Source: Aequorivita capsosiphonis DSM 23843
GTDB lineage: Bacteria > Bacteroidota > Bacteroidia > Flavobacteriales > Flavobacteriaceae
Assembly (NCBI RefSeq): GCF_000429125.1
Contig: NZ_AUBG01000014.1
Span: 1-64,000, forward strand
Direction: 5' to 3'
DNA length: 64,000 nucleotides
Shown here: in pieces, positions 13,021 through 50,200 of the stretch
Layout: every line of letters begins with the position of its first letter
Numbering within the stretch: position 1 is the first letter of the stretch
Made by a program: the position numbers and the translations under genes
Notes under the pieces: generated by a model
Seen by the model: only the letters and a program-made list of their open reading frames with translations
Database searches by the model: none
What the model was told of the DNA's origin: nothing

Positions 13021-13150
13021 TTTCAAAGGGTTCTAACAAGGGTTTCAGGTTTCAGGTTTCAAGTTGCAGGATGCAGGTTAAAAGCAATAACTTTCTTGTT
13101 TCTATGCTCTTTGTCTCTTGTCCCTAAAAAAATAAACCACTCTCTCTCAA

Positions 13151-13220
13151 CTACTGACTACTGACTACTGACTACTGACTACTGACTACTGACTACTGAC
13201 TACTGACTACTGACTACTGA
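13151..13220. repeat. Heptanucleotide tandem array (CTACTGA)10
   Basis: Ten perfect copies of CTACTGA fill 13151-13220, between the cytochrome c gene and the TPMT-like gene. Partial relatives (ACTGAATACTG, GATCACTGATCACTGACT) occur at 36862-36890 and 50745-50790. The period is not a multiple of three, in keeping with a non-coding location. Copy number is probably unstable. Confidence 0.95.
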
Positions 13221-13258
13221 AAAATTAAATATCTCAAATTCCGTGCAATTCATTTTCT

Positions 13259-20056: not shown

Positions 20057-20836
20057 ATGAAAAATGTTGGTCTAGTACTATCAGGTGGAGGAGCACGCGG
20101 GGCTGCGCATATAGGCGCTTTAAAAGCTTTTGAAGAATATGGTATCTCTCCGACTCATGTTTCTGGTACTAGCATTGGAGCAATTGTAGGGGCTTTATAT
20201 GCGGGAGGCGTACATTGGTCCGAAATATTCAGTTTTTTTAAAGAAACCTCTATTTTTCATGCCAAGAGATTCGCCTTTAACAAACCCGGATTTATTGATA
20301 CCGAAAAGTTTTATGCGGATCTTCAAGTATTCTTTCCAAGAGATAATTTTGATGTTTTGGAAAAACCGTTATTTATTACCGCAACAAACGTGATATCGGG
20401 AAATTTAAAAATTTTTAGCAAGGGGCAGCTTATAAAACCCATTATAGCTTCTGCTTCTTTTCCAGGGGTTTTTACTCCTACCGAAATCAATGGTTCTTAC
20501 TATATCGATGGCGGAATACTAAACAATTTTCCAGTCGAGCCTTTGAAGAAACACTGTGATAAAATTATAGGAGTTTTTATTAATTCGCTAAAGAAAGTAA
20601 GTATTGACGATCTAAAACACTCCTATTCTGTAGCCGATAGAGCACTAAAAATTGGGGCTGCAGCAGAATCGAAATTAAAGTTTCCAAAATGCGATTTAGT
20701 TATTGCTCCTAAAGATTTGGGCAGCTATGGCATCTTTGGAATGAGTAACGCAGATACCATCTTTGAATTAGGCTATTCCGAGACAATAGCAGTTTTAAAG
20801 GAGAATGAAAATCTTTTGCGTAGTAATTCATTTTAA
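20057..20836 (+). CDS. Patatin-like phospholipase (RssA/NTE type)
   Basis: A serine lipase-fold hydrolase. The oxyanion loop GGGARGAAHIG is at 10-20, nucleophile elbow GTSIG at 37-41 with Ser39, and the catalytic Asp in YIDGGILNNFP (D151). Patatins hydrolyse acyl chains of phospholipids with a Ser-Asp dyad. There is no signal peptide, so it acts in the cytoplasm or at the inner face of the membrane. The downstream membrane-protein gene starts 5 bases after the stop, so they are co-transcribed. Confidence 0.92.
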   Translation: MKNVGLVLSGGGARGAAHIGALKAFEEYGISPTHVSGTSIGAIVGALYAGGVHWSEIFSFFKETSIFHAKRFAFNKPGFIDTEKFYADLQVFFPRDNFDVLEKPLFITATNVISGNLKIFSKGQLIKPIIASASFPGVFTPTEINGSYYIDGGILNNFPVEPLKKHCDKIIGVFINSLKKVSIDDLKHSYSVADRALKIGAAAESKLKFPKCDLVIAPKDLGSYGIFGMSNADTIFELGYSETIAVLKENENLLRSNSF

Positions 20837-27384: not shown

Positions 27385-30300
27385 TTATTTTTTCGTTTTC
27401 GATTCCGATTCCGTTTTCGATTTCGGTTTCGGTTTCGTCCCGATAGCTATCGGGATCGTTTTCGGGATCGTTTTCGATTTCATCTGCTTTGTTTTAGCAA
27501 GCATCTTTGGCCTCAATTTATCTCTTACCCCAGTCAAGGCCGTTCTCAATTCACTTATCCGGGTTTCCAAATCTTTGTTCGGCTTATGAGCTCCGCCGTT
27601 TAAACCGGCAACTATATTAAGCGATCTGGTTAAAAAATCAAGATGTTCCAACTCCGTGGTTCTTTTTGCTTCGGAGCCGGCTTTTTGCCAGATCGTCTTA
27701 AAGTTTTGAATTACTTCTTCCCATTTTGCTTCTATTTTTTCATCTTCAATAACAAAGAGAAGGCATAAATCAATGTTTGACGAGGCAATCATGTCCCAAT
27801 AATCAAGATCTTCTACATCAGACTTTTCTTTTAATTCATTCTCTAGCTCAATAAGTGTTTCTTTTGCTTCAGAAAAAGTTCTCAATTTATATTTTTCCCC
27901 AGCTACAATAAATTCACCTCCATCTTTTATTGCTTCATTAAAAACCAATAAGCAAGCAATTTCTATAGAATTCACCAAAGAATAGGTTTTTTTTGAATTA
28001 AAGTCTTTGCTGTAAGCGCTCTCGTAATGGGAGATTGCCGTTTTATAGGCACTGATACGCTTTTTAGAATCGGGTGCCAACATAGCCAAACGTTTATGGA
28101 CACTTCCCAATAAATTATGACGTTCTGCCGTTTCTCCCGCAAATAGTAAAACACTAAGATCCTTCACTACATTTACTGTTTTTTGGTAGGCTTTCTTTTT
28201 GGAATTTGGATCGATTTCTTCGATATCAAAAACTTCCCTGATATATAATTTTGAACGTGTGTTGCAGTATTTTTCCATACAAGAAAAGGAGAAATCAGCA
28301 TTCTCCATTTTTAGCAACTCTTCATAATTCCCGGTAGCTTCAATATACATTGCTAATTCCTGATAGATTTTAGCCACTCGTTCTATAATTTGCGGAGTTT
28401 TTAAAACATCCCGCTCCACGGCCGCCATAATGGTGTTTAAATCTGCTAAATGATCTTTATCTTCTCCTGACTCCATCTGCAACTGATTGAGCAGGTTATC
28501 TAGATCAATCTCCGCCTCCTGTGGAACAATATATTTTGGAGACCAAGAACCTTTTCCACTGGAGATGCCTTTTAATTTAAAGAAAGGGTCTCCATAACAT
28601 TGATAGGCACCCCAAGTGTTATTTCCCGGATGTTTTTCGTAAATATAATTTCGAGCATTTTTCACGGCATCTCCAAAACTATATCCAGCGAACATACTGC
28701 TGTAAAAGACCTGTGCAAAATCTAATGCTGCCGCATCATTAACAGCCCATCCAGCGGCGATTACAGCTTTTACACCAATACTTATCAATTGGGTACCAAT
28801 GTTTGCTGCCAGCTTATATCTATCGCGATAAAATTTTTCATCTTCCGAATTAGTATATCCAAGATGACAACAGTTTACAAAGACGAGTTCAGGAACTACG
28901 GGCATCTGCTCTATTTCGAATACCGTTAGGAAGACATCCTTCCCGATAACCATCCCCGATTTTTTTGGAAATTTCGGATTAAAAACCCCATGCCCTGCCA
29001 AATGAATTATGGAATAATCATTACAGAAAAAATTCTTGACAATGCTTTCGGCATCTGTTCCAATGAGTTCGGTTGTAGGATAACCCACATTTCCCAAGGT
29101 GTCCTTAACCATCATTCCTTCTTCTCTGGCACCGGGCAATTGGGAAATAAAACCATTCAGAATAGGATCGGCAATAATCAAAGCGCCTTTTTCCGCAACG
29201 CGTTTTATATTAATTCTGTATTCCTTGGTGGATAACTGTCGGATCATTCCAGCATTGATGCAAAGTGGTTTGGCATTGGTAGTATTGTCCTGAAGCAATT
29301 CCCAGGGATAGGAAGCGGTTTTAGTATCCAAAATCCAGGAAATATTTCCTTTTTGCTTCAATTTCTCCTTTAAATTATTAGGAATCAATAACTCGAAAAG
29401 TGTTTTTGCCGTGCAGCTAGACCACTGATTATTGCTGGAAGCTTCTGATATAAATAAGTCTATTAACGGCGTGCTGCTGTAAAGTTCGTTCTCTTCTTCT
29501 CTAGAATCACCGGTGGAAGATCCAAAAACCATACTTGCAGGATTCCCTGTTTCCTCGTTGCCTTCTTTGTATTTAATGGTTATACGGTTCCACCAATCCT
29601 CCGCATTATCCAATGGAATTCTTTTTTGGATACCCAATAAATTTTTGATTCGCTTGTTGCCAATAATGATGTTGTAGGTTGAATTTTCTTTATTAGCAAT
29701 TTTATTGAGAATATACATACAGTTTAAGGCTCTGTTTGCGTATCGCTCCACAATTTCAATGTGTTGAACGGTTCTATAACTTTCATCGGATAGAATCTTT
29801 ATTTTTTCATTCGCTCGGTTCACCCCATCAATAATAGCTTTAATTGAACCTTCCACGGAAAGTCCACCATATCCTGTCGCTACAATTAAGGAGGAAACCC
29901 CAATCCCCTTTTTGGGAATCTCATCACCCCGAATGATTAACAAATAATTCAAAACACCTTGTTCTACCGATTTTGAAAGCTGAAAGGAGGTAAGCTGATC
30001 TGGTTCTCCCAGTCCTACTATAATTGCGCCTTCAAAGTCTGTAAAACTCCTTTTAACAAATATAGCATTGGTGCCAATTTCTCCTGGATAAAGCCCTAAT
30101 CTATGTTTTGCCGTTAGGCTACCGCCAAGATATTTGTCTATTGACTTTTCGGCGTATAGCACGCCATCATTTAAGAAATGCCCTGCAATAACAGGATATT
30201 CTATATAGCGTAAATCGCCATTGCTCACGGTAACCGTAAGTGGAATCTGGCTGCCCACAGGATCAATTTCATCTCCAAGTCCAAATATGGTTTTTTCCAA

Positions 30301-32913
30301 GCCGCTTTGGGAAAGATCGAAATCTATATCGGGTTCTGCACGGAATATTTCTTCCTCACCTCGTAATAAGGGTTTTGTATTTCGAAGCAATTTGGTTTGT
30401 CCGGTGGAAAGTATTTCCTCAATAGCATTAAAAAGATCCGGTTCATTGGCCAATGCTCCATGGGTTACACGCGAATAATAAACGGCATTGGCTTCCACAA
30501 GCTGTTTTGGAATCCCGGATGCCCAAGTTACACTTTGATCGCCTTCACTGGTATAAAGGAAATACAATTGTTTTTTCGGCGGAATTTCATCCAAATAATA
30601 CCCGCAAGGAGTCATTTTATCCTTCCCGGCGATATACACCATACTTGAATAATCTATTTCATCTCTTTTCTTCAGAATATTATCCCGATAGTTTTTAAAA
30701 TAATCCAGATCGGATTGAAGCGGTAATGGCCAATCGGATTGTCCGAAATAATTCCGCATATTCTTCCAGGTTTCCATTTTAGCGAAATCGTTTTTAGGGT
30801 CGGTTGTTAATGGCAACAAAGCCAATATTCCCGGGAATTGGGAGAACATTCTAAGCAGCCCTTTTTTGGTGTGGAAAAGATCCAATTTGCTCAGCTTTTG
30901 AATGATGGCATCTTCTCCGAATAACACTGAAGGAATTCTAAACGAACCCCCAAGCGGCGACCCAAGAAAGAGCATCCTAAAGCCTTTTGAAGCTTTTAAT
31001 TCTTGCCAAGTATCGTCGTGATTAAGAATAAAATCACGCGCCAAAAGTCCGCCCATCGAATGTCCGATGATTTTTATCGGCTGCCCTACTTTTAGCAGAC
31101 TTTTAATTTTTATGTTGAATTCACTCGCACATTCCGGAAGAGGTTTTCGCCAGTCAAAAGGAAATACTACAACATCATATTTACCCGAAAGCCATCTGTA
31201 AAGTTTGTAATACGAAGTTTTTACCACAGAATCTGCTACCACTTTGTTGACATTGGAATATCCCAATTTTATCAATCCGCCGGTAAGGATCCGTCCGTAA
31301 TGAAGCCATATTTCCTTATCTTTTTGTGTGAGGTTAGAGCCCATAATTCCAGGAAGCATAACCACAATCGGTTTGTTGCCTGAAGGTGGCGAAGTTGAAG
31401 GATATAGCTCACCAGATTCTATAAGTGCTCTATCGCTTCCGGGAATTTCATACTGCGGAATACATTTAAATCCGGGAATGAGTTCTCCTTCCACCGTTGT
31501 TAACACTAAGCCTATTGCTTCCCTAGTTTTATCATTTTCAAAATACTTTACGTGGTTTACCTCTGCCCCTTGATCAAAGAAATACTGAATGTTATCTTTT
31601 CGTCTAGCACCTAAATACATGGAATCTGTATTTACAACCAAATCATTTCGTTGCCAGTAGAACAATTTTCCTAGTATAACAAATAGCCCTTGCCCCGAAA
31701 AGCTCACTCTTCCATTTCCTGAAATAACCGCCAAGGGTTTTCCGCTAATTGCAGTTTCTGGTGAAGGATCGTTTAATATTTTTATAAAAGGAGATTCCGG
31801 GCGTTGCGCTTCCACACCTGGAAGTACATTTACATCATCCTTGCTTTCAACGGCTGCAGAGAGCAATTCTTTTAAAATATCACCAAACAAACCTCCAGAT
31901 ATGGTTATCAAATTAAAAAACACATTTAAGATATGATCCAATCGTTTTGAAGCCAATTTGGTTCCTGCGGCAGGACAGCCAACTCTTATAAATTTAGCAA
32001 CCCTTATATTTTTATCCCTAAAGATTTTGTTGAGCGCTTCTATATTCTCAATGTCTTCTTCCCTGTCGCCTTCTTTTTCCAGCAATGCGATGTGGCTGCC
32101 AGTAAATCCAATAGAAGAATCATCATTATCACTACTGTATTTATTTAAAATATCTCCTACGATTCCACCTCTGGAATGCGTAAGCAAATGCACTACGGAA
32201 TGATCCGGAAGCATTTGGGCAAGTTTTACAACGTTCAGCAATGGGCTTTCGGTAAGGGTTCTGTGTTGAAAAGCGAGTACGTTTTTACCGTAAGTTTGAT
32301 GTAGCGTATTCCAAGTGGGGGAAGCTTTTAAATCCTGAAACGCGCCAAAAGTATCTGAGTTTGTTCCATGGATAAATAGAAAAAACGGATTGTTGGAAGC
32401 TTTTCCATCAAAAACCCCAAATTTGAAGTCTCTGTCAACAGTAAACAGGCCAGCGCCTAGAGCCAAAAAGTCTTTTGGAATTACATTCGCCGGAATTTCA
32501 TTTTGTAAGTGTTTGTCTTCCAATTTTATTGAAAGCTCTGCCACTCCTTTCCCGATGGCCTTTTTTGCAAATACTTTTAAAAGTTTTACAGCTATTTTAC
32601 CAATAATTCCCCTTTCTGTTGCAGGCGCCTCTACCGAATCAGGCAGTACAAAAACATCGGGCTGCAGGTCGCGACTGCCAGGTGGTTTTAGAGCTGGATC
32701 GAGCTCTGGAAAAACCTCGTGCATGGTTGAAGCATCACACATCCAAGACGTACCATCATCAAGAACCAATTCCAATAACTTATCATTTTCTGCTAGTTGT
32801 ATTTCGTGTTGGTTGGAAGCATCTCTAAAACTGCCCTCCAAATTATACACTACAGCTCCTTCTTGGTCGGTTTCCTTTTTGCCATAAACCACGAGTTTTT
32901 TGATTGGTTCCAT
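27385..32913 (-). CDS. Giant protein: two alpha/beta-hydrolase domains plus CHAT protease-like domain
   Basis: An 1842-residue cytoplasmic-looking protein with no signal. In order: a beta-rich N-terminal module (1-100); a first alpha/beta hydrolase with FIHGTNSDTFGAF near 182 and nucleophile elbow THSRGG (S247); and a second, LCAT-like hydrolase with PGIMGSNL at 521 and GHSMGG (S619). Next is an unassigned alpha/beta region (about 870-1040), then a CHAT domain with HLAGHG (H1308) and NCCHLG (catalytic Cys probably C1349). A helical, TPR-like region (1420-1800) and a basic Lys/Thr/Ser tail follow. CHAT domains are caspase-related proteases used in bacterial immunity and cell-death modules. The gene is monocistronic. 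Function unknown; lipase-plus-protease effector is inference. Confidence 0.85.
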   Translation of the reverse strand: MEPIKKLVVYGKKETDQEGAVVYNLEGSFRDASNQHEIQLAENDKLLELVLDDGTSWMCDASTMHEVFPELDPALKPPGSRDLQPDVFVLPDSVEAPATERGIIGKIAVKLLKVFAKKAIGKGVAELSIKLEDKHLQNEIPANVIPKDFLALGAGLFTVDRDFKFGVFDGKASNNPFFLFIHGTNSDTFGAFQDLKASPTWNTLHQTYGKNVLAFQHRTLTESPLLNVVKLAQMLPDHSVVHLLTHSRGGIVGDILNKYSSDNDDSSIGFTGSHIALLEKEGDREEDIENIEALNKIFRDKNIRVAKFIRVGCPAAGTKLASKRLDHILNVFFNLITISGGLFGDILKELLSAAVESKDDVNVLPGVEAQRPESPFIKILNDPSPETAISGKPLAVISGNGRVSFSGQGLFVILGKLFYWQRNDLVVNTDSMYLGARRKDNIQYFFDQGAEVNHVKYFENDKTREAIGLVLTTVEGELIPGFKCIPQYEIPGSDRALIESGELYPSTSPPSGNKPIVVMLPGIMGSNLTQKDKEIWLHYGRILTGGLIKLGYSNVNKVVADSVVKTSYYKLYRWLSGKYDVVVFPFDWRKPLPECASEFNIKIKSLLKVGQPIKIIGHSMGGLLARDFILNHDDTWQELKASKGFRMLFLGSPLGGSFRIPSVLFGEDAIIQKLSKLDLFHTKKGLLRMFSQFPGILALLPLTTDPKNDFAKMETWKNMRNYFGQSDWPLPLQSDLDYFKNYRDNILKKRDEIDYSSMVYIAGKDKMTPCGYYLDEIPPKKQLYFLYTSEGDQSVTWASGIPKQLVEANAVYYSRVTHGALANEPDLFNAIEEILSTGQTKLLRNTKPLLRGEEEIFRAEPDIDFDLSQSGLEKTIFGLGDEIDPVGSQIPLTVTVSNGDLRYIEYPVIAGHFLNDGVLYAEKSIDKYLGGSLTAKHRLGLYPGEIGTNAIFVKRSFTDFEGAIIVGLGEPDQLTSFQLSKSVEQGVLNYLLIIRGDEIPKKGIGVSSLIVATGYGGLSVEGSIKAIIDGVNRANEKIKILSDESYRTVQHIEIVERYANRALNCMYILNKIANKENSTYNIIIGNKRIKNLLGIQKRIPLDNAEDWWNRITIKYKEGNEETGNPASMVFGSSTGDSREEENELYSSTPLIDLFISEASSNNQWSSCTAKTLFELLIPNNLKEKLKQKGNISWILDTKTASYPWELLQDNTTNAKPLCINAGMIRQLSTKEYRINIKRVAEKGALIIADPILNGFISQLPGAREEGMMVKDTLGNVGYPTTELIGTDAESIVKNFFCNDYSIIHLAGHGVFNPKFPKKSGMVIGKDVFLTVFEIEQMPVVPELVFVNCCHLGYTNSEDEKFYRDRYKLAANIGTQLISIGVKAVIAAGWAVNDAAALDFAQVFYSSMFAGYSFGDAVKNARNYIYEKHPGNNTWGAYQCYGDPFFKLKGISSGKGSWSPKYIVPQEAEIDLDNLLNQLQMESGEDKDHLADLNTIMAAVERDVLKTPQIIERVAKIYQELAMYIEATGNYEELLKMENADFSFSCMEKYCNTRSKLYIREVFDIEEIDPNSKKKAYQKTVNVVKDLSVLLFAGETAERHNLLGSVHKRLAMLAPDSKKRISAYKTAISHYESAYSKDFNSKKTYSLVNSIEIACLLVFNEAIKDGGEFIVAGEKYKLRTFSEAKETLIELENELKEKSDVEDLDYWDMIASSNIDLCLLFVIEDEKIEAKWEEVIQNFKTIWQKAGSEAKRTTELEHLDFLTRSLNIVAGLNGGAHKPNKDLETRISELRTALTGVRDKLRPKMLAKTKQMKSKTIPKTIPIAIGTKPKPKSKTESESKTKK
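27438..27455. repeat. Perfect 18-bp palindrome inside CHAT gene
   Basis: TCCCGATAGCTATCGGGA is its own reverse complement. It lies in a hexamer-rich (TTTCGA/TTTCGG) stretch that encodes the basic tail of the CHAT protein. A similar TTTCGATTTCGAT run is intergenic at about 40014-40043. Confidence 0.8.
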
Positions 32914-40096: not shown

Positions 40097-41977
40097 GTGA
40101 ATTATCTTTCAGTAGAAAATATATCCAAGTCTTTCGGGATGCGGGCTTTATTTGAAAATATTTCCTTCGGAATAAACGAAGGCCAAAAAATAGGTTTCGT
40201 CGCCAAAAATGGTACCGGGAAGACCTCCTTACTTAACATCATCGCCGGCAATGACAATGCCGATACAGGGAACGTGGTTTTTAGAAAAGGTCTTAAAATT
40301 GCCTATCTGCCTCAGGAACCAGATTTAGATCCTCAGTTAACGGTGGAGCAGACTATCTTTTCTGCAGACAATCCCATCTTGAAGATTATAGAGGACTATG
40401 AACACGCCCTTGAAAACCCAGAAGATGCGGAAGCCTTCCAAAAAGCATTTGATGCGGTAGACGCTCACAACGCTTGGGATTTTGAAACACGTTATAAACA
40501 AATTCTCTCAAAACTTAAGATGGACGACTTGCACGCCAAGGTTTCCAGCCTTAGCGGCGGACAGAAAAAACGGCTGGCACTTGCTAACGCGCTGCTCACC
40601 ACTCCAGATTTGTTGATTATGGATGAGCCGACCAACCATTTGGATCTTGAAATGATAGAATGGCTGGAAAACCTCTTCGCAAAGGAGAACTTCACCCTTT
40701 TTATGGTTACGCACGACCGTTATTTTCTGGAACGCGTTTGTAACGAAATCGTAGAGCTTGATGAGGGAATACTATATAGCTACAAAGGAAATTACAGCTA
40801 TTACCTCGAAAAAAGAGATGCGCGAATAGAAAACGAAGTATCAGAAACAGGAAAGGCAAAGCAACTTTTCAAAAAAGAACTGGACTGGATGCGCCGCCAA
40901 CCAAAGGCACGTACCACAAAAAGTAAAAGTCGAATTGAAGATTTTCACGAGATAAAAGATCGCGCCAGTAAACGAAGAAACGACCATCAAGTGCAGTTGG
41001 AACTCAATATGGAGCGCATGGGGACGAAAGTGGTGGAATTCCATAAGGTTTCAAAATCTTTTGGTGACAAAAAGCTATTGAATAATTTTGAGTATAACTT
41101 CAATAGAGGAGAAAGAATTGGTATTATCGGAAAAAATGGTACTGGAAAATCTACGTTTTTAAATATTCTTACTGGAGGTCTGCAACCGGATGCAGGAAAA
41201 GTTATTGTTGGCGACACCGTTCGGTTTGGCTACTATACTCAAAGTGGTATCAACATTAAAGACGGTCAAAAGGTTATAGATGTAATTCGTGAATTCGGTG
41301 ATTATATTCCGCTGAAAAAAGGGCGTCAGATCTCTGCTTCCCAACTTTTGGAACGCTTTCTTTTCGATCCTAAAAAACAATATGATTTTGTTGAAAAATT
41401 AAGTGGTGGAGAACGGAAACGTCTTTATTTGTGTACCGTTCTTATAAAAAACCCAAACTTCCTCATTCTGGATGAACCTACAAACGATTTGGATATTGTA
41501 ACTTTAAATGTTCTAGAAAGCTTCCTGTTGGACTTTCCGGGTTGTCTTTTAGTAGTTTCCCACGACCGTTATTTTATGGACAAGATTGTGGATCACCTTT
41601 TTGTGTTTAGAGGAGATGCTGAAGTAGAAGATTTCCCAGGAAATTATAGTGATTTCAGAAGCTATGAGGATAGCCAACCTACCGTAAAAAAAGAAATTGA
41701 AACCAACTCAAAATCAAAAAACGATTGGAAGGACAATAAAAAAGACAATACAACAGCCGTTAAGCTAAATTATAACGAACAGAAAGAGTTCGGGAAACTG
41801 GAGAAAGAAATTGCCAATCTCGAAAAAAACCGGGAAACACTCCAAAATAAATTCGCCACAGAAAATTGGGACGGCGCCGAAATTGACAAGCAATCCATCA
41901 AGCTTCAGGAAATCATTGATATGATAGAATCCAAAACAGAAAGATGGTTTGAACTGTCTGGGAAGATGGAAGGTTAG
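40097..41977 (+). CDS. ABC-F ATPase, Uup-like
   Basis: A soluble tandem-ABC protein, likely acting on ribosomes. Walker A sites are AKNGTGKT (36-43, with Ala in place of the first Gly) and GKNGTGKST near 345; both LSGG signatures are present (LSGGQKKRLALA, LSGGERKRLYL), and Walker B is MDEPTNHLD and LDEPTNDLD. The C-terminal coiled coil (about 550-626, LEKEIANLEKNRETL) is the Uup-type DNA/RNA-binding tail. Start GTG at 40097 lies 16 bases after a TACATTTG box. Uup/ABC-F assignment is firm; precise subfamily is likely. Confidence 0.92.
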   Translation: MNYLSVENISKSFGMRALFENISFGINEGQKIGFVAKNGTGKTSLLNIIAGNDNADTGNVVFRKGLKIAYLPQEPDLDPQLTVEQTIFSADNPILKIIEDYEHALENPEDAEAFQKAFDAVDAHNAWDFETRYKQILSKLKMDDLHAKVSSLSGGQKKRLALANALLTTPDLLIMDEPTNHLDLEMIEWLENLFAKENFTLFMVTHDRYFLERVCNEIVELDEGILYSYKGNYSYYLEKRDARIENEVSETGKAKQLFKKELDWMRRQPKARTTKSKSRIEDFHEIKDRASKRRNDHQVQLELNMERMGTKVVEFHKVSKSFGDKKLLNNFEYNFNRGERIGIIGKNGTGKSTFLNILTGGLQPDAGKVIVGDTVRFGYYTQSGINIKDGQKVIDVIREFGDYIPLKKGRQISASQLLERFLFDPKKQYDFVEKLSGGERKRLYLCTVLIKNPNFLILDEPTNDLDIVTLNVLESFLLDFPGCLLVVSHDRYFMDKIVDHLFVFRGDAEVEDFPGNYSDFRSYEDSQPTVKKEIETNSKSKNDWKDNKKDNTTAVKLNYNEQKEFGKLEKEIANLEKNRETLQNKFATENWDGAEIDKQSIKLQEIIDMIESKTERWFELSGKMEG

Positions 41978-41989
41978 ACAGAGGTTGCA

Positions 41990-42146
41990 GGTTTAGAGTT
42001 TAGAGTTTAGGGTTTAGGGTTTAGAGTTTAGAGTTTAGAGTTTAGAGTTTAGAGTTTAGGGTTTAGAGTTTAGGGTTTAGAGTTTAGAGTTTAGAGTTTA
42101 GAGTTTAGAGTTTAGAGTTTAGAGTTTAGAGTTTAGAGTTTAGAGT
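41990..42146. repeat. Heptanucleotide tandem array (GTTTAGA/GTTTAGG)
   Basis: About 22 copies of GTTTAGA with scattered GTTTAGG variants run without a break between the ABC-F gene and the aminotransferase gene. The unit resembles plant-type telomere repeat by chance. It may vary in length between strains and change spacing of the downstream promoter. Confidence 0.95.
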
Positions 42147-42209
42147 AAATTAAAAAAACTTGGCGACTTGACGTGCATCTTTCCCGATAAAACCACGATT
42201 TAATATAGA

Positions 42210-47878: not shown

Positions 47879-50200
47879 ATGTCCGACGAAAAATTGCCGC
47901 AAGAAGAAAACGAAAAAGAAATCCCTACAACAGATACTCCTCAGGACTCTCAAACTACTTCTGAAAACCCTGAAGTTCCAAAGGAAGCTTCTGAAAAAAC
48001 CGAAACCGAAATTACTGCAGAAGAAAACTCAGTAGATGACGCAAATACAGAAAGGCCTTCTCCTGCTGAAGCTTCGGAGGACGATCCATCCTACGCTAAA
48101 GCTTCGGAGGACGAAGGTCCATCCTACGCTAAAGCTTCGGAGGACGAAGGGGGGGATGGTGTTGAGGAAGCGATGCTTGCTGAAAAGAAATCAGTAGCGG
48201 ATAAAGAATCGACAGAAGCAACTTCTAACGAAAAGATTGAAGCTTCGGAGGATGATCCATCCTTCGCTAAAGCTACGGAGGGTGAAGACCCATCCTTCGC
48301 TAAAGCTACGGAGGATGAAGACCCATCCTTCGCTAAAGCTACGGAGGATGAAGAGGAGGTAGAATCTTCGGAAGATGATGAGGAAGATGAAGATCCGTCC
48401 TACGCTAAAGCTTCGGAGGATGAAGAGGAGGTAGAATCTTCGGAAGATGAGGATGAAGAAGGGGACGATAGCGAAGAAAAAGCTCAAAAAGATTACAGTA
48501 CACTTTCAAAAAAAGAATTAGTTGCTGCTTTGGACACACTTCTAAAGTCCAAAAAAATACAAGAATTAAAACACGATGTTGAGGAAATTCGTTCTGAATT
48601 TAACAGTCAGTTTAATGAAGAATTAGAGCAGAAGAAAGAAGAGTTTCTTGCGGAAGGGGGAAATATCATCGACTTCCACTACACTACTCCACTTAAAAAG
48701 GATTTTAATTCACTTTATTTCGACTATAAAGAAAAACGCAACAACCATTATAAAACCCTTAAAAAGGATTTACAGTCCAACTTAGATAAGCGATGGGAGT
48801 TAATTGAAGAACTCAAGAGCCTTTTAAACACAGAGGAAAATATTAACACCACTTACAAGCATTTTAAGGATATTCAAGAAAAATGGCATCTTGCAGGAGC
48901 AATTCCACGAGACAAATACAATACGGTTTGGAATACATACCATCATCACGTGGAAAATTTCTACGATTTTCTTCACCTAAACCGTGAATTCCGTGATCTG
49001 GATTTTAAACACAACTTAGATGCCAAATTAAAGCTAATTACCCGTGCCGAAGAACTTGCACAGGAAGCAAACGTAAATAAGGCATTCCGCGAATTACAGA
49101 TGCTCCATAAAATGTGGAAAGAGGAAATTGGGCCTGTTGCCAAAGAATATCGCGACGAAGTTTGGGATAAATTTAGCGATGCCACAAAAGTGATCCACGA
49201 TAAGCGCCAAGGACAATTGGCCGAAATGGAAAAAGACTTTGAAGATAATTACGAAAAGAAAAAACAGCTTGTTGAGGAAATAAAAAAAGCAACCGAGGAG
49301 GCTAAACCAAGTCATCAATGGTGGCAAAATGCCATTAAGAAAACACAGGAATTTCGGGATGCTTTCTTTAATACAGGTCGCGTACCTAGAGCCAATAACA
49401 AAGAAATCTGGAAAGCTTTTAAAGATGCTACCGGAAACTTTAACCATCAAAAAAACAGCTTTTATAAAAATCAGAAAAAGGAACAGTACACCAATTTGGA
49501 AAAGAAACGGGAGTTGATAAAAACTGCCGAAGAGAACAAAGACAGTGAGGATTTTGATGTTACAACCCCTTTGATGAAAACTATTCAAAACGATTGGAAA
49601 AATATTGGTCACGTACCCCGAAAGGATAGTGATAAAATATGGAAACAATTTAAAAAAGCTTGTAACCATTACTTTGACCGCGTTCACGCAGAAAAAAACC
49701 AAGCCAATAAAGAAGAGGTTGTTCATTTAGAAGCTAAAGAAAAAATGCTGGAACAACTGGGTTCATTTGAACTTAGCGGCGATCATAAAGCTGATATAAA
49801 ATCCATCAAGGAAAACATTACCGCTTGGAAAAATATTGGACGTGTTCCCTACAACAAACGTAATATTGAGCAAAAATTCAATAAGATTCTAGACGGACTA
49901 TTTTCTAAATTGGATTTAGGTAAAAAAGAAACTGAGCTTATCAAGTTTGATAACAAACTAAACACGCTCGTCAACAGAGAAGATGATCGAAAATTAAAGA
50001 ACGAACATTTCTTTATTTCAAAAAAGATTGACGAAACCAGAGACGAGATACGCCAACTGGAAAATAACTTAGGCTTCTTCCGTCACGTAGATGACGACAA
50101 TCCAATGGTAGTTGAAGTTAATAAAAACATTGATCGCCATAAAGAACAACTTGAGGTTTGGAAAGCAAAGCTTTCGAAAATCAAGGAAGTTAGAGAGTAA
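47879..50200 (+). CDS. DUF349 protein with repeat-derived acidic N-terminus
   Basis: The C-terminal ~550 residues carry several helical DUF349 repeats (WHLAGAIPRDKYNTVWNTY, WKNIGHVPRKDSDKIWKQF, WKNIGRVPYNKRNIEQKF). The first ~210 residues are highly acidic and built partly from six copies of a PS(Y/F)AKA(S/T)E(D/G)E unit. That unit is a translated short DNA repeat, TCC(T)(A/T)CGCTAAAGCT(T/A)CGGAGGA. I start at ATG 47879; the TTG three codons upstream is unlikely. Function of DUF349 proteins is unknown; the acidic part is probably disordered. A terminator follows. Confidence 0.88.
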   Translation: MSDEKLPQEENEKEIPTTDTPQDSQTTSENPEVPKEASEKTETEITAEENSVDDANTERPSPAEASEDDPSYAKASEDEGPSYAKASEDEGGDGVEEAMLAEKKSVADKESTEATSNEKIEASEDDPSFAKATEGEDPSFAKATEDEDPSFAKATEDEEEVESSEDDEEDEDPSYAKASEDEEEVESSEDEDEEGDDSEEKAQKDYSTLSKKELVAALDTLLKSKKIQELKHDVEEIRSEFNSQFNEELEQKKEEFLAEGGNIIDFHYTTPLKKDFNSLYFDYKEKRNNHYKTLKKDLQSNLDKRWELIEELKSLLNTEENINTTYKHFKDIQEKWHLAGAIPRDKYNTVWNTYHHHVENFYDFLHLNREFRDLDFKHNLDAKLKLITRAEELAQEANVNKAFRELQMLHKMWKEEIGPVAKEYRDEVWDKFSDATKVIHDKRQGQLAEMEKDFEDNYEKKKQLVEEIKKATEEAKPSHQWWQNAIKKTQEFRDAFFNTGRVPRANNKEIWKAFKDATGNFNHQKNSFYKNQKKEQYTNLEKKRELIKTAEENKDSEDFDVTTPLMKTIQNDWKNIGHVPRKDSDKIWKQFKKACNHYFDRVHAEKNQANKEEVVHLEAKEKMLEQLGSFELSGDHKADIKSIKENITAWKNIGRVPYNKRNIEQKFNKILDGLFSKLDLGKKETELIKFDNKLNTLVNREDDRKLKNEHFFISKKIDETRDEIRQLENNLGFFRHVDDDNPMVVEVNKNIDRHKEQLEVWKAKLSKIKEVRE
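48082..48430 (+). repeat. Six coding copies of a CGCTAAAGCT repeat
   Basis: The core (TAC or TTC)GCTAAAGCT(T or A)CGGAGG recurs six times in frame: two Tyr/Ser-type units near 48090-48145, three Phe/Thr-type units near 48260-48345 and one Tyr/Ser-type unit near 48398. The unit is itself partly palindromic around AGCTT. Variation between units suggests separate insertions or slippage and conversion. Confidence 0.85.

Follow-up and report, generated by a model that had tools for sequence, protein, structure and literature searches.

A fusion of two lipase-fold domains with a macro-CHAT-TPR region in Aequorivita capsosiphonis, a candidate self-contained effector of bacterial conflict

Aequorivita capsosiphonis DSM 23843 carries a gene for an 1842-residue protein in which two lipase-fold hydrolases are joined to a macro-fold domain, a CHAT caspase-like protease and a helical TPR-S array. 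The gene lies in the 64,000-nucleotide stretch analysed here (the window), which comprises positions 1 to 64,000 of contig NZ_AUBG01000014.1 (assembly GCF_000429125.1). We favour, with a probability of about 0.58, the reading that this protein works in the cytosol as a self-contained effector of bacterial conflict, acting against phage or in programmed death, with a phospholipase output gated by the macro-CHAT-TPR region. The computed basis consists of the domains, their folds, conserved catalytic residues, a patchy spread, presence or absence at a fixed genomic site, and adjacency to conflict genes in a minority of relatives; from these we infer a phospholipase activity, its gating, a trigger, cleavage in cis and an anti-phage role.

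Domain architecture and catalytic residues

A preliminary description, made from the letters of the window, had proposed two serine-hydrolase domains joined to CHAT in one chain, with which the open reading frame, the Pfam domains and the AlphaFold folds agree (Table 1). Pfam places DUF7379 (PF24096) at residues 179–260 (E 9.8e-28, 97.8 bits against a cut-off of 33), LCAT (PF02450) at 581–721 (E 7.6e-10), CHAT (PF12770) at 1168–1442 (E 5.7e-25, 88.8 bits against 24) and TPR-S (PF20308) at 1523–1649 (E 1e-9, 39.3 bits against 27.6). Profile, serine nucleophile and fold all assign hydrolase 2 to the LCAT family, and the CHAT domain has its catalytic His and Cys; NCBIfam returned for the whole protein only a sub-threshold match to HetF. 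Structure prediction by domain, which had been suggested as a check, gave two lipase folds in the model of residues 1–870 (predicted local distance difference test (pLDDT) 88, predicted template modelling score (pTM) 0.87) and a CHAT/separase fold within that of residues 844–1842 (pLDDT 83, pTM 0.72). A profile search of the Protein Data Bank (PDB) with residues 844–1842 retrieved only TPR, other helical or designed proteins, and no CHAT protein.

The same description had placed a possible sensor in the helical C-terminus. This region is a TPR-S array resembling the central regulatory region of ASK1 and is a probable sensor, but a second domain, at residues 887–1081, had been overlooked. Its fold is that of the Peptidase M17 N-terminal or macro domain, and its sequence is closest to PepA N-domains. 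The M17 N-terminal profile (PF02789) matches 23 of 49 members, the best at 4.7e-7, the window copy giving no match at E up to 0.1, and a PDB profile search with the macro domain alone found just one aminopeptidase, at E 0.085.

Table 1. Features of the gene and its protein, in window coordinates
Feature	Residues	Position	Strand	Remark
Whole gene (N-terminal domain, hydrolase 1, hydrolase 2, macro domain, CHAT, TPR-S)	1842 in all	27385..32913	-	ATG start
Beta-rich N-terminal domain	1–100	32614..32913	-	DSSP of the model; no Pfam match
Conserved basic/hydrophobic stretch	101–137	32503..32613	-	Precedes hydrolase 1
Hydrolase 1 (DUF7379, lipase fold)	171–480	31474..32403	-	
Hydrolase 1 nucleophile	S247	32173..32175	-	Alignment conservation
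Hydrolase 2 (LCAT/lysosomal phospholipase A2-like)	513–837	30403..31377	-	
Hydrolase 2 nucleophile	S619	31057..31059	-	Alignment conservation
Linker, hydrolase 2 to macro domain	844–868	30310..30384	-	
Macro-fold/PepA (M17) N-terminal-like domain	887–1081	29671..30255	-	
CHAT caspase-like protease	1143–1450	28564..29487	-	
CHAT catalytic His	H1308	28990..28992	-	82/82
CHAT catalytic Cys	C1349	28867..28869	-	82/82
Helical TPR-S array, ASK1 central-regulatory-region-like	1463–1811	27481..28527	-	

Conservation was assessed in an alignment of 82 sequences, the window copy and 81 loci about 30–87% identical to it, of which four (L021–L024) are second copies from genomes already included and two are truncated at the N-terminus. 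All three active sites named beforehand have the residues stated and are conserved: in hydrolase 1, S247 (THSRGG) in 80/80; in hydrolase 2, S619 (GHSMGG) in 79/82; and in CHAT, both catalytic residues throughout (Table 1). Because they persist across the 82 aligned sequences, these motifs are not chance occurrences. From their conservation we propose D424 and H454 (each 82/82) as partners of S247, and D792 (82/82) and H818 (79/82) as partners of S619. Three Chitinophaga loci (L098, L099, L100) carry S619 to G and H818 to Y together, with the hydrolase 1 and CHAT residues intact; they are apparently a single clade in which hydrolase 2 is naturally dead.

The stretch preceding hydrolase 1 is also conserved (R101 in 80/80, K110 and F115 each in 75/82) and could possibly make membrane contact. 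In the linker, where pLDDT falls below 50 across residues 844–863, P848 (75/82), R851 (76/82), F865 and D866 (each 62/82) are conserved; a separase-like ExxR cleavage site was considered here and dropped, the motif not being conserved. Purifying selection acts on every segment among the window copy and ten close relatives, nine from Aequorivita or the same clade and one labelled Gelidibacter. Median ratios of nonsynonymous to synonymous substitution, from the 24–34 of 55 pairs usable per segment (the rest being saturated), are 0.063 for the N-terminal segment, 0.044 for hydrolase 1, 0.040 for hydrolase 2, 0.070 for macro, 0.032 for CHAT and 0.109 for TPR. A spurious reading frame is ruled out by this selection and by the 1426 homologues found.

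Hydrolase 2 is nearest to lysosomal phospholipase A2 (PLA2G15), followed by LCAT and by the type VI secretion lipase Tle4, at 18–22% identity. Each of these is a stand-alone lipase, working in the lysosome, in plasma or in type VI secretion, whereas here the lipase is fused to a second lipase and to a protease-sensor module. The likeness to Tle4 would suit lipases released onto other cells, in allolysis or predation, rather than acting on the cell that makes them. We hold this to be very improbable: at the N-terminus the start is conserved and leads into a beta domain, and neither a signal peptide nor a secretion gene was seen by eye (no predictor was run).

Distribution and genomic site

All four Pfam domains occur together in 116 of 120 homologues among the matches listed, out of 1426 in total. 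Within the genus, a whole-genome search found the gene in 14 of 28 species, in a single frame in 12, across two contig ends in one and interrupted in one; a fifteenth match is a weak one to CHAT only. Beyond the genus the spread is patchy, at about 1–7% of the samples: 14 long matches in 299 genomes of the family and, at E <1e-30, 6 matches (one partial) among 395 genomes sampled from the class and 8 (three partial) among 395 sampled from the phylum, the window's own genome being counted in each. A macro-CHAT-TPR relative used as query (P0145) matched 18 of 244 genomes in the family of Pinibacter (L070), which we take to be Chitinophagaceae. The scan of named genomes found 478 stretches, 80 of which were used, representing 75 distinct loci. 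One metagenome-assembled genome has its copy split into two frames (L014/L016/L062), through decay or assembly error. A housekeeping gene is ruled out by the patchy distribution.

In Aequorivita the gene occupies a fixed site: each of the 14 species that have it carries it beside a biotin carboxyl carrier gene. It also lies near the carrier gene in Cochleicola and Ulvibacter. When scored against the window's carrier gene, the 14 species that lack the fusion gene have the lowest-scoring copies, those at the border being almost equal (65% identity in a species with the fusion gene, 66% in one without). Presence therefore follows descent. In five of six gene-less species examined, the upstream gene, lipoprotein-like by eye, directly adjoins the carrier gene, and therefore nothing but this single gene is lacking; in the sixth, other genes stand between. 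Between the window and relatives the downstream flank is common and the upstream flank is not. These observations fit a one-gene unit that is old and vertically kept in the window's clade. The one-gene character suggested earlier is thus supported for this lineage, whereas a direct link to defence is not seen in the clade. Likewise, the survey of homologues proposed earlier yields a patchy, non-housekeeping spread with conflict-type neighbours in some relatives, but in the window's clade a housekeeping-gene site and inheritance by descent.

Neighbouring genes in relatives and in the window

The earlier statement that no partner gene is obvious is borne out in the window and at most of the loci examined, but not in some relatives, in which TIR, caspase, DUF4062, STALD or STAND genes are adjacent. 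The 73 loci outside the Aequorivita clade have 32 co-oriented genes within 100 bp, and 23 of these were looked up singly. Eleven of these neighbours, in ten loci, are of conflict type: a C14 caspase (L061), TIR genes (L077, L119), nSTAND1 (L077), LRR-Roc-TIR (L083), a CAP12-type TIR (L115), STALD (L108), a KAP nucleoside triphosphatase (NTPase; L140), weak TIRs below cut-off (L121, L125) and DUF4062 (L063), which is just over cut-off and overlaps the gene start as called. The remaining neighbours are SNF2, peptidoglycan-binding, CHAP, VanY, RDD, Na/H exchanger, DUF5995, ParA-like, response-regulator-like or unknown. No partner gene common to the loci was found among them, only clade-specific ones. 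A diverged subfamily (L133, L134, L135, L136, L139) has a gene for a 410–411-residue protein 3–12 bp downstream, with a peptidoglycan-binding domain in L133, the only member scanned. Four of the five then have genes for a 116–119-residue and a 534–538-residue protein, the latter FAD-binding in L133. In two genera (L082, L119), genes for a TIR protein and a ParA-like NTPase stand beside the core gene in differing order (Pfam was run on the L082 copy), and may possibly be a conserved cassette.

TIR genes were sought in 86 loci, 14 of them from the Aequorivita site group and some species perhaps counted twice, using a local profile built from 20 TIRs of these genomes (E <1e-3). Nine loci (L058, L063, L077, L083, L115, L118, L119, L121, L125) have a TIR within 500 bp, always co-oriented. 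The 59 host genomes, about 326 Mb, hold 163 matches to Pfam TIR_2, and six of the nine adjacent TIRs (L058, L063, L077, L083 and L118, matched by hand on position, and L119 separately) are found at the Pfam level in these genomes against a Poisson expectation of 0.03, a descriptive figure in that the 500-bp limit was set after seeing the data. Some lineages thus show a real association with TIR genes, but most show none.

This association raises the possibility of a Thoeris-like arrangement, in which a TIR, encoded in cis in some genomes and in trans elsewhere, would make a signal of the ADP-ribose (ADPR) type that the macro domain binds, turning on CHAT and the lipases. We regard this as unlikely. 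The nine adjacent TIRs speak for it, as do the predicted macro fold, the three TIR_2 genes of the window's genome, all on another contig, and the DUF4062 gene of L063, a domain that a preprint (PMC13174449) reports to be a TIR-like NADase acting in phage defence. Similarly, sections of PMC11204291 describe ThsA macro domains that bind ADPR and imidazole adenine dinucleotide (IAD), and sections of PMC12847820 pair His-ADPR with a macro effector in type II Thoeris and N7-cyclic ADPR with a caspase-like protease in type IV. On the other side, a TIR gene in the operon, as Thoeris has, is lacking in the window (0/9 neighbours scanned), and in most loci none is nearby. PepA N-domains, to which the macro domain is closest by sequence, are also not known to bind ADPR.

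Several results weigh against a conflict effector in general. In 12 loci fetched later, with limit and profile fixed, no TIR lay within 500 bp (0/12), which leaves 9 of 98 loci combined with such a gene and 89 of 98 without; furthermore, 13 more TIRs lie beyond 500 bp, on either strand, in 8 of the 86 loci. PADLOC has no model for the whole protein, matching CHAT only, and weakly, and its tallies for near (32) and far (100) neighbours, seen for the commonest 25 of 66 and 25 of 41 families, do not separate the two sets. The near list consists mostly of helicase models matching two members each, probably the SNF2 helicases of L076 and L079, with DpdE/ZorD-like matches, while the far list includes a ThsB-like TIR and a phospholipase effector; the far Pfam tally shows no TIR or caspase among its commonest 25 of 229 families. 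The linker has no strictly conserved cleavage motif. In the window's clade the site holds housekeeping genes and the gene follows descent, and no defence partner was found among the scanned neighbours in the window. The helicase genes lie 10 bp downstream of the core gene (L076:15027-19049, L079:15078-19097).

Of these results, the site among housekeeping genes, the descent within the window's clade and the TIRs further out would suit an enzyme of lipid metabolism or envelope remodelling tuned by proteolysis, with defence neighbours as hitchhikers in variable regions, and so would the many relatives in which the gene stands alone. We think this rather improbable. Presence is patchy even in close relatives, and TIR density peaks within 500 bp (9 genes in 1 kb per locus against 13 in the rest). 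CHAT and TPR-S are typical of conflict proteins; a protein with CHAT and TIR effector domains appears in sections of a paper on hypermutation (PMC10907252).

PADLOC was run on ten window genes, eight of which had no match. Of the other two, the patatin gene at 20057-20836 resembles phospholipase models of CBASS (E 1e-13), and the gene for an ABC-F ATPase at 40097-41977 resembles several ATPase models (E 6e-37); we read both as family-level matches only. A repeat scan found no CRISPR-like array in the window, and no Cas model matched the ten neighbours (Cas7-11 was not searched genome-wide); no CD-NTase, as in CBASS, was found among the window neighbours scanned, no genome-wide search having been made. 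After the ABC-F gene lies a 7-mer tandem repeat, GTTTAGA/GTTTAGG (41991-42151); 33-nt repeats within a predicted open reading frame and an ACTACTG tandem repeat occur at 48050-48453 and 13136-13226, respectively.

Proposed mechanism and relation to known systems

For the conflict effector that we favour, both lipases would be kept inactive at rest by a gate composed of the macro domain, the CHAT protease and the ASK1-like TPR-S array. The macro domain and TPR-S are the candidate sensors; the former, between lipase 2 and CHAT, is the likeliest small-molecule sensor. A ligand derived from nicotinamide adenine dinucleotide (NAD) or a nucleotide might bind the macro domain, or a protein might bind the TPR array, upon which CHAT would become active and cut either in cis, for instance within residues 844–868, which are flexible, or in a target. 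Freed or activated by this cut, the two lipases, of which the second resembles phospholipase A, would attack membrane phospholipids from the cytosol. A narrower version, in which the macro domain reads a NAD-derived signal made by a TIR from a neighbouring gene or in trans, and CHAT then unleashes two phospholipases that dissolve the membrane in a protein with an ASK1-like array, is speculative and in our estimate doubtful.

Csx29, the TPR-CHAT protein of type III-E CRISPR Craspase, and SAVED-CHAT likewise combine the CHAT fold with TPR or a ligand-sensor domain in one chain, but here CHAT precedes TPR, lipases are fused and the window has no CRISPR-like array. Of the Thoeris systems, type II, with the TM-macro protein ThsA, shares a macro fold and type IV a caspase-like protease, and TIR genes are adjacent in some relatives, whereas the window has no TIR partner, macro domain and protease share one chain with lipases, and the ligand is a candidate only. 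CapV and CapE, phospholipase effectors of CBASS, resemble our protein in the probable output, attack on membrane phospholipids; they are of patatin type, unlike the alpha/beta hydrolases here, for which no cyclase partner occurs among the neighbours scanned. Protease and lipase also meet in a Chitinophaga pinensis metacaspase fused with a GDSL lipase and an amidase, according to portions of a 2012 metacaspase survey (PMC3501461); there the protease is not CHAT, the lipase is not LCAT or DUF7379, and those portions name no macro or TPR-S domain. ASK1 is a eukaryotic kinase, and the helical-repeat match to its central regulatory region may mean just a common arrangement, although sections of PMC8195603 derive components of the ASK signalosome from bacterial conflict systems. 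In the text searched of that paper and of PMC7159879, the terms TPR-S and CHAT are not used for a domain.

No recognised description of the architecture was found in the open-access literature searched; the parts are known and their combination appears undescribed there. Bacterial immunity is known to use CHAT proteases, TIR/macro signalling and phospholipase effectors as separate parts, and domain types from them are fused here in one conserved protein of the Bacteroidota. If our reading is true, the protein would offer a compact model of membrane lysis gated by a protease, and a bacterial case of an ASK1-like regulatory array joined to an executioner. It makes testable the question of whether CHAT can activate a covalently attached lipase, and on which signal.
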